Of a stretch of DNA of 54,423 bases, positions 27,601 to 30,750 are shown in pieces. Below the pieces are notes generated by a model. The model saw only the letters and a program-made list of their open reading frames with translations. It did not search any database and was not told where the DNA came from. The stretch's first letter is position 1; every line of letters begins with the position of its first letter. The stretch covers positions 1 to 54,423 of the forward strand of contig JAGWBU010000050.1 in NCBI GenBank assembly GCA_021295735.1, in the 5' to 3' direction. Position numbers and translations under genes: made by a program. The stretch is from Candidatus Poribacteria bacterium (GTDB lineage Bacteria > Poribacteria > WGA-4E > WGA-3G).

Positions 27601-28614
27601 CTAAATATTATCTTCTCCCCAAATATGAATTCTATCTGATATATTCATACCTAAATTTTTATCTGTGCCTATATTTTTCATTGCTTTTTTAAGATTTTTG
27701 AAAAATCTTTTATCTGCCGAAATTACTGGACAAAATGGTAGATAGTATAAGTATTCCCAATCTCGTAAATATGTTTTCTCCTTCATAAAACCACAATATG
27801 CCGAACACATATTGATGAAATAGAAGTAGTAACAGTATTTAGCGTAGTCATCTGGATAGGGATAATTAGGTCTTATTGCTATCTGTTTCTTTGGCCATGA
27901 CGCGTCAAAACTGTATGCTGTAGATAAATTATTGATGATTTCTATAATTGATGTTTCTTGCAAAGTTTTCTTGACGAGTCCAATTACATCTTCTAACTGC
28001 TTTCCATAAAATGGATTGTACCCATGTTTTTTTCTATGTGCTTTGATCAACTCCTTGACATCGTTTCTGACTTGATCTTTAGGGATATATCTTTCTCCAT
28101 GTCTAAATCCATATATAACTGTTCTTTCTACTACGTCTTCTAATTCAACGGTGTGTTTCACTTGAAACCTTTGGTCGAGATTATTGAAGTATTTATAATA
28201 TTCATCAGCAGCACTTCCTTTTGCCCAATTTATTAAATCCATTCGTTCTTTTTTGTCATATGGTAAAAAATAAACAAGGTTGGAATCTTCCTCCACTTTC
28301 CTGAATGTAGAAACACCCAAATCTTTTTTCATAATTTCATGGGGAGGAGATGGAATAAAATCCTTAAGAATCATCGGTCCGTTGTGTATTGATATTATTA
28401 AAAAATCCTCAATTTTTTCTATGTGTTCTATCACTTTACATCTTTCAGCGTTTGCACATTCCATAAGAAGAACTTCTGGAAACACAAAGGCGTATTTTTG
28501 GTTTAATTTCTTCATTTCTTCTACTGTTACGTGTTCAAAAACACAACGATCAAAGATCGCGCATTGTTTTCCTGTTTCGATTATGCTTGAATCGGTTGCT
28601 GCATTCATCTTCAT
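27601..28614 (-). CDS. Hypothetical protein with PIN-like ends
   Basis: A 337-residue protein I cannot name. The N-terminal IFDRCVFEHV (D22) and PEVLLMEC (E52), with a C-terminal D285 and SADKRFF (D301), resemble the spaced acidic residues of a PIN nuclease fold interrupted by a long helical insertion (about 75-280). AGGAGG precedes the ATG at 28614. The gene is more AT-rich than its neighbours and sits between a HigA-like protein and an HNH protein, suggesting an acquired accessory island. The nuclease reading is an inference. Confidence 0.5.
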   Translation of the reverse strand: MKMNAATDSSIIETGKQCAIFDRCVFEHVTVEEMKKLNQKYAFVFPEVLLMECANAERCKVIEHIEKIEDFLIISIHNGPMILKDFIPSPPHEIMKKDLGVSTFRKVEEDSNLVYFLPYDKKERMDLINWAKGSAADEYYKYFNNLDQRFQVKHTVELEDVVERTVIYGFRHGERYIPKDQVRNDVKELIKAHRKKHGYNPFYGKQLEDVIGLVKKTLQETSIIEIINNLSTAYSFDASWPKKQIAIRPNYPYPDDYAKYCYYFYFINMCSAYCGFMKEKTYLRDWEYLYYLPFCPVISADKRFFKNLKKAMKNIGTDKNLGMNISDRIHIWGEDNI

Positions 28615-29235: not shown

Positions 29236-29748
29236 ATGCCACGCAAAAACAAGATTCTCAATATCGGCGATACAGCGCCCTCATTTTCACTGCCATCACA
29301 TCGGCGGCAAACTGTTTCACTTGCGTCTTACCGCGACGAACAACACGTGATTTTGACATTTTTTAGAGGGACATGGTGACCAAACAGCCGCCGCCAGTTG
29401 GCTGCATTACAAGAACATGCGAATGATTATGCAGAACATAACGCTACACTGATCGCTATTGCGGGACAGTGGCCTCGTGAATTACGTGGTTTTGCCGAGC
29501 GGAACGGAATTACGTACCCACTATTGGTTGACAAAGATCGGAGCGTTATCAAGAGTTATGGCGTCTACCACTGGCTCAGTTTTGAGGCTTACAACATCGC
29601 CAGACCAGCCACCTTTCTCATTGACAAACTCGGGACAATTCGGTATATGTATATTGGGTCGCATCAATTCGATTTAGTTGATCATGCTGAGGTGCTTGAA
29701 TGCTTGAAATCAATAGATAGTGGCAAAAATGATTTTGAATTGCAGTGA
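29236..29748 (+). CDS. Peroxiredoxin (AhpC/TSA family) with in-frame TGA at the peroxidatic position, candidate selenoprotein
   Basis: Read through one TGA (29377-29379), the frame gives a 170-residue peroxiredoxin: GDTAPSFSLPSHRRQTVSL, then VILTFFRGTW-U-PNSRRQLAAL, NGITYPLLVDKDRSVIKSYGVYHW, and ARPATFLIDKLGTIRYMYIG. The TGA is residue 48, exactly where related proteins have the peroxidatic cysteine of RGTWCPxC. Nothing else in the frame is broken. Bases 29390-29405 can form a hairpin (loop AGTT at 29396-29399, with G in the first two positions) at the distance expected for a bacterial SECIS. A simpler nonsense mutation or read error cannot be excluded. The ATG at 29236 is chosen because upstream sequence is repeat-derived. 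Confidence 0.75.
29380..29405 (+). promoter_or_regulatory. Candidate bacterial SECIS element
   Basis: Directly after the TGA: GCCGCC (29390-29395) pairs with GGCTGC (29400-29405) with one C.T mismatch, leaving a 4-base AGTT loop that begins 17 bases after the TGA. Alternatively CAGCC (29385-29389) pairs with GGCTG (29400-29404). Bacterial SECIS hairpins lie in the coding sequence at this distance, so the geometry fits; folding was judged by eye. Confidence 0.45.
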
Positions 29749-30716: not shown

Positions 30717-30750
30717 AAATCAACGCCAAATGCGCGTATGGCATTTGGCG
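30717..30750 (+). repeat. AAATCAACG hairpin repeat, copy 2
   Basis: Starts AAATCAACGC and forms CGCCAAATGC-GCGTAT-GGCATTTGGCG. A diverged version of the 35-nt repeat, closest to the reverse-oriented copy at 46800-46833. Confidence 0.7.

Follow-up and report, generated by a model that had tools for sequence, protein, structure and literature searches.

A phylum-wide peroxiredoxin-fold protein of Candidatus Poribacteria in which an in-frame TGA very probably encodes selenocysteine

Introduction

Does a reading frame that is interrupted by a single TGA represent a dead gene, or one in which the TGA is read as selenocysteine (Sec)? This question is raised by a gene on contig C119 of a Poribacteria MAG (5.07 Mb in 230 contigs, 93.5% complete, 5.55% contaminated). 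The contig, which was analysed over its whole length of 54,423 nucleotides, is referred to here as the window. An earlier note had interpreted the gene, from the sequence of the window, as a peroxiredoxin (Prx) that carries Sec at its catalytic position. Here we compare the gene with its relatives in the phylum, with the Sec machinery of its own genome, and with known selenoproteins.

The gene and its setting

In the ORF translation, the frame at 29236-29748 on the forward strand runs for 170 residues to a TGA stop and contains a single internal TGA. The break that had been reported at 29377-29379 was borne out and corresponds to codon 48, within the sequence RGTW-U-PNSRRQL. An ORF listing with a minimum of 100 codons shows just the downstream fragment of the gene. 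In a search for related loci, the closest relatives of the protein were Candidatus Poribacteria records. The features of the window discussed below are:

29236..29748, + strand: predicted gene for a selenoprotein of Prx fold, 170 codons plus TGA stop, with one internal TGA (based on conservation, PF00578 and AF2)
29377..29379, + strand: TGA read as selenocysteine (U48); TGA in 53/54 aligned sequences, TGT in 1/54
29386..29388, + strand: codon of Ser51, where (C/U)xxC motifs have their second Cys; invariant in a 21-row alignment, Cys in distant relatives of the class
29390..29405, + strand: bacterial SECIS-like hairpin, with an AGUU apical loop at 29396-29399 and 16 nt from UGA to loop
31134..34122, + strand: riboflavin genes (RibD, lumazine-binding protein, DHBP synthase/GTP cyclohydrolase II), assigned by Pfam; conserved downstream neighbours

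RibD lies beside the gene in 41 of the 53 loci whose flanks were examined, several of these flanks being incomplete. The window also contains a minus-strand ORF of 337 codons (27601-28614), for which neither a Pfam match (E 1e-5) nor a tblastn match in the 53 loci (1e-8) was found.

Conservation of the TGA codon

The earlier note had proposed an alignment with homologues that have C or U at codon 48. The related-locus search returned 54 loci, of which L064 (Chloroflexota, 25% identity) was excluded as not orthologous. Codon 48 was counted in the window plus L011-L063, a total of 54 sequences; two of these, L061 (labelled Gemmatimonadota) and L063 (incomplete at its end), were excluded from all statistics beyond this count. 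Every sequence has TGA except L027, which has TGT (Cys), and such a frequency is more than chance would produce. Coding quality had been described as equal on the two sides of the TGA, and this was confirmed by NG86 dN/dS values against the window of about 0.06 before and after it: the median over codons 1-47 is 0.062, from the 36 of 51 pairs that could be computed, and that over codons 49-160 is 0.065, from 31 of 51.

A survey of the phylum gave a match to the protein in 72 of 84 genomes, and 70 of these 72 contain an in-frame TGA. The survey counts TGAs only, the position of the TGA having been read for the aligned, folded and distant loci; moreover, the aligned loci and the surveyed genomes overlap and are not independent sets. 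Close orthologues (at least 60% identity) are held by 65 of the 70 TGA-bearing genomes, and distant homologues, 33-39% identical, by the other five (G014, G015, G016, G018 and G022). The two matching genomes without an in-frame TGA are G035, which the selB coordinates identify as the genome of L027, and G017, where the match is a distant Cys homologue with the motif CPVC.

The copy at L061:3001-3595, on the contig labelled Gemmatimonadota, has the TGA but reads UKRS and contains an inserted stretch. The sample set from which it derives (RHO2) also yielded Poribacteria bins. This copy may reflect either horizontal transfer or misbinning.

Selenocysteine machinery

The presence of selA, selB, selD and tRNA-Sec had been suggested as a check on the selenoprotein reading. 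All three protein-coding genes are found in the window's own genome, with profile search scores of 525.5 bits for SelA, 344.1 bits for SelB and 371.8 bits for SelD. Their frames are free of lesions apart from an in-frame TGA in selD (CAGUASK motif), and this is a conserved feature: all 8 Poribacteria genomes searched carry an in-frame TGA in selD, within CAGUASK or CGUAAK (e.g., L088:1531-1533; L089-L095).

SelB scores above the cut-off in 75 of the 84 genomes of the phylum, which points to Sec decoding as a general trait of Poribacteria. By hand tally, selB is found in 65 of the 70 TGA-bearing genomes and in all 56 of those that are at least 90% complete; selB is missing from five (G036, G039, G054, G065 and G066), which are 73-83% complete. 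Among all genomes of at least 90% completeness, only G011 lacks selB, and it also gives no match to the protein. Nine genomes have selB and no match to the protein, as is expected if selB serves other selenoproteins too. Co-occurrence of SelA and SelB in most sponge symbiont bins, from various phyla, is described in PMC5649159.

The tRNA-Sec gene (selC) is also present in the window's own genome, but its 5' end is missing as assembled. It adjoins selB (C204:24041-24106) and scores 38 bits, under the gathering score of 47. The anticodon, variable and T arms are kept, as is the 3' acceptor strand, and the first 16-17 nt, comprising the 5' strand of the acceptor and D stems, are absent. In their place, the selB stop is followed by about 90 nt of unrelated sequence, whereas in the nearest relatives (L130, L132 and L139) some 20 nt of spacer separate selB from the first 16-17 nt of the tRNA. 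Of 16 loci, 12 (11 relatives and the own locus) were caught by the search motif and aligned for this comparison. The missing 5' piece was sought across the own assembly, allowing up to 2 mismatches, and was not found. Whole selC genes, scoring 74-80 bits, occur in 15 of the 18 genomes of the genus; the other genus genomes without one are G036 and G039, which are 73-81% complete and also lack the core pattern and selB.

In the Rfam tRNA-Sec search of the own genome, the best match was a tRNA-Leu under the gathering score, which was rejected; the truncated selC ranked fifth. The tRNA-Sec region with the shortened 5' end and the odd sequence spans C204:24041-24220 (L007, L070). Besides itself, the odd spacer has only two weak partial matches in the own genome. 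One of them is a stretch of 34 bp in the window (30717-30750), which is 85% identical to part of this odd sequence and may be a dispersed repeat.

There is a small chance that selC is truly broken in this strain, in which case the UGA would go undecoded and the gene would be a very recent pseudogene, with the selenoprotein found elsewhere in the phylum. The replacement of the 5' acceptor and D strands by different sequence, and the absence of the missing piece from the rest of the assembly, would fit such a loss. However, selA, selB and selD show no lesion beyond the conserved TGA of selD, the Prx frame shows no other lesion and has a low dN/dS against near relatives, and selC is whole elsewhere in the genus save for the two genomes that lack selB too. 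A chimeric join is an easy explanation of the broken selC in a MAG of so many contigs and this level of contamination, and we consider a faulty join the likeliest cause of the gap. Even a genuine loss of selC in this strain would be compatible with the selenoprotein reading for the family as a whole.

The SECIS-like hairpin

The earlier note had placed a hairpin with an AGTT loop at 17 bases after the TGA. It is the AGTT loop that starts at the 17th base, and the stem starts at about 29390 instead. Statistics on this element were drawn from 52 sequences, L061 and L063 having been left out. Bases 17-20 after the TGA read AGTT in all 52. All 52 have CAG at codon 54, while Gln elsewhere in the gene is split between 163 CAA and 173 CAG. 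At codon 55, 47 sequences have TTG and 5 have TTA, never CTN, whereas Leu outside codon 55 is mostly encoded by CTN in the same sequences; where codon 56 encodes Ser, it is TCG in 15 of 15 cases. When 157 codons are ranked by synonymous bias, codon 55 is first, 51 third, 56 fifth, 52 eighth and 53 ninth, with codon 54 at rank 22.

Base pairing, with positions numbered from the TGA, was counted in the 46 sequences that share the main register. Pairs 16-21, 14-23 and 11-26 form in all 46, 12-25 in 42, 15-22 in 30 and 13-24 in 28. The encoded amino acids largely dictate pairs 14-23 and 11-26. At 15-22 the pair is variously C-G, U-G, U-A or A-U, with a mismatch in 16 of the 46. In the remaining six sequences, which belong to another family, pairing is mostly offset by one position. 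Under synonymous recoding, the lowest mean fold z values among 37 folding windows (-1.01, -0.97 and -0.89) belong to those that start at codons 41, 45 and 49, respectively, and these cover or adjoin the hairpin.

The AGUU hairpin of the window itself is weak (-7.0 kcal/mol, with a stem of 3+2 bp around a mismatch), and the MFE structure of the 42 nt after its TGA is a competing stem. A 60-nt stretch of the window folds no better than shuffled sequences (z 0.32), and on this result folding of the single sequence was rejected as evidence for a SECIS. By our own count, an AGUU(N) apex appears in the MFE structure of only 19 of the 52 sequences; folds of 27 nt range from -4.5 to -14.7 kcal/mol. 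As the hairpin in the window is weak and not the MFE structure, a single-sequence hairpin proves little here, and it is the comparison across relatives that is informative. The bSECIS model set out in PMC13188914 has a G in the first two loop bases, a spacing of 16-37 nt, a stem of 4-16 bp and an MFE <=-7.5; the loop and spacing match this model as given there, and the stem and energy of the window's hairpin are borderline. Taken together, the conserved AGUU loop and the frozen synonymous codons are those of a predicted bacterial SECIS, one that is weak in the window itself.

Fold and active site

The designation of the protein as a peroxiredoxin holds for its fold and domain, but not for a canonical active site. 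The AhpC-TSA domain (PF00578) is matched with 107 bits (cut-off 26), and PF13911 scores 21 bits, under its cut-off of 27. Ten NCBIfam families were matched at E 0.01, all of them under their own cut-offs, including PrxU (22.5 bits, cut-off 270), a SelL-related family (48.6, cut-off 120), BCP (66.3, cut-off 140) and ResA (60, cut-off 170). An AlphaFold2 model built with 21 sequences has a mean pLDDT of 86.3, rising to 90-95 in the blocks that span residues 31-60, and adopts the Prx fold. In Foldseek, it matches Bcp/PrxQ and AhpE proteins best (Bcp4, TM 0.85/0.92); ResA chains are among the best 50 matches listed, and there is no GPx among the Foldseek matches listed.

The TGA had been thought to lie exactly at the peroxidatic position, and this proved incorrect. 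HMMER alignments to AhpE and the Aeropyrum PrxQ pair U48 with the Thr/Ser of the (T/S)xxC motif, and it is Ser51 that occupies the place of the peroxidatic Cys. Read by eye, the same alignments place the Prx Pro on R44 and the Arg on P124. In AhpE and PrxQ, the Pro, Thr/Ser, Cys and Arg residues are the ones that we take to be catalytic; the canonical combination of PxxxTxxC, with Cys or Sec last, plus Arg is not found in the Poribacteria protein. In thioredoxin, ResA and GPx the catalytic chalcogen occupies the N-terminal position of a W-C/U-x-x-C/S/T motif. Since U48 lies on the Thr/Ser position, its Sec is N-terminal as in these enzymes (UxxT in GPx).

The observation that Ser takes the place of the second Cys was correct, Ser51 being invariant in the 21-row alignment. 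Just one Cys column, 156, is common, with Cys in 25 of 52 sequences, and 26 of 52 have no Cys at all in codons 1-160. As no second Cys is conserved, the simplest interpretation is that a single selenol acts with an outside reductant, and by its sequence the protein is probably a single-selenol enzyme that is resolved by an outside thiol. The residues G77-Q78-W79-P80-R81-E82 are also invariant in the 21-row alignment; it is speculation that they take the part of the Gln and Trp of GPx.

Proposed mechanism and other readings of the TGA

The central claim of the earlier note, that the gene encodes a selenoprotein, is supported by the conserved TGA, the Cys counterpart, the presence of selA, selB and selD, the co-occurrence with selB, and the SECIS-like loop. 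We consider it very probable that the gene specifies a small selenoprotein of Prx fold, in which Sec is inserted at residue 48 by means of SelB and the AGUU hairpin and acts through single-selenol chemistry. From its conservation and the machinery present, the AGUU hairpin, whose loop lies 16 nt beyond the UGA, would recruit SelB carrying Sec-tRNA(Sec), and selenocysteine would be incorporated at residue 48. The selenol of U48, in the motif WUPNS and at the N-terminal position seen in thioredoxin and GPx, would be the only conserved chalcogen of the enzyme and probably attacks a peroxide or a disulfide as putative substrates. Because its partner residue is Ser51, oxidised Sec would be reduced by an outside thiol, in a one-Sec mechanism that may be comparable to that of the 1-Cys AhpE or of monothiol enzymes.

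Two further readings have very little probability. A single in-frame TGA in a MAG might be a sequencing error for TGC or TGT, or the mark of an ordinary dead gene, but the TGA recurs in nearly all aligned sequences, these come from many separate records, and the codons before and after it are under purifying selection. Nor is it credible that the TGA encodes another amino acid through a genome-wide code change, or separates two overlapping or coupled genes, for which a TTG start at 29398 that opens a downstream ORF of 116 codons might be cited: the gene ends in TGA itself, as do several relatives, codon 48 encodes Cys in one locus, the Sec machinery is present, and the residues on either side of the TGA lie in one predicted fold (pLDDT 90-95, residues 31-60).

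An apparently broken gene of the uncultured, sponge-associated Poribacteria is, on the selenoprotein reading, almost certainly intact. Standard gene finders end the frame at such a TGA, and annotations of these sponge symbionts are therefore likely to miss or split a conserved redox enzyme.

A cysteine form and distant UxxC relatives

The Cys (TGT) version at L027:3001-3480 still has the hairpin, with 6 bp and -12.0 kcal/mol, and its genome retains selB, selC and selD. With both hairpin and machinery in place, L027 looks like, and probably is, a recent Sec-to-Cys change. Such changes have been described for other genes in PMC1794560.

In the five genomes with distant TGA-bearing homologues, the copies read WUPxC or FUPFC, that is, a UxxC motif (one of the two G014 copies was read). 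The distant phylum homologues L155, L156 and L158-L161 are UxxC selenoproteins. Five of them (L155, L156, L158, L159 and L161) were folded and form hairpins of 6-7 bp with GGA or GGC triloops after the TGA; the Cys homologue L157, folded likewise, gave no such hairpin. We infer that the family either arose from the UxxC Prx-like proteins of the same class or has a common ancestor with them. UxxC, UxxS and one CxxS that still has a good SECIS-like hairpin make up a natural series for the question of Sec versus Cys.

We lean towards viewing the Poribacteria proteins as a separate, unnamed subfamily of the Prx fold. In this subfamily all conserved Cys would have been lost, including the resolving Cys of the UxxC relatives, and Sec would have been kept, leaving a GPx-like or monothiol selenol with Ser and an AGUU SECIS of its own.

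Comparison with known systems

The best relatives of solved structure, by sequence and by fold, are the mycobacterial AhpE (a 1-Cys Prx) and the archaeal PrxQ/Bcp, but their Pro, Thr/Ser, Cys and Arg are replaced by R44, U48, S51 and P124. ResA/TlpA and glutathione peroxidase (UxxT) have the N-terminal catalytic chalcogen in common with the Poribacteria protein. Unlike ResA/TlpA, the protein has no second Cys, and its score with the ResA profile is far under the cut-off.

Among selenoproteins, a Sec-containing peroxiredoxin with the motif TxxU, in full PxxxTxxU, is described in PMC13188914. Both this protein and the NCBIfam family NF040737 (PrxU) combine a Prx domain with Sec, as does the Poribacteria protein, but in them Sec occupies the last rather than the first of the four motif residues, and the PrxU score falls far short of its cut-off, as given above. 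Prx-like thiol:disulfide oxidoreductase selenoproteins with UxxC or UxxU and PF00578 appear in PMC13188914 and PMC1088965, and Prx-like selenoproteins with UGC are likewise known. The UxxC/UxxU proteins, as described there, have in common with the Poribacteria protein PF00578 and a thioredoxin-like motif in which Sec takes the N-terminal place; the latter differs in having Ser for the second Cys and no conserved Cys.

The tables of PMC13188914 and PMC9312934 list a UxxS selenoprotein of the AhpC/TSA type (cd02970/PF13911; member MDX2448127.1), which they credit to a paper on an Olavius algarvensis symbiont. Compared by its description in these tables, it has a Prx-like domain and the UxxS motif in common with the Poribacteria protein, but is assigned to PF13911/cd02970, and the Poribacteria protein matches PF00578. 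No mention of a Poribacteria selenoprotein was found in the literature searched, which covers part of the journals. Selenocysteine in Prx-like proteins is already known; what appears to be new is a member that extends across the phylum Poribacteria.
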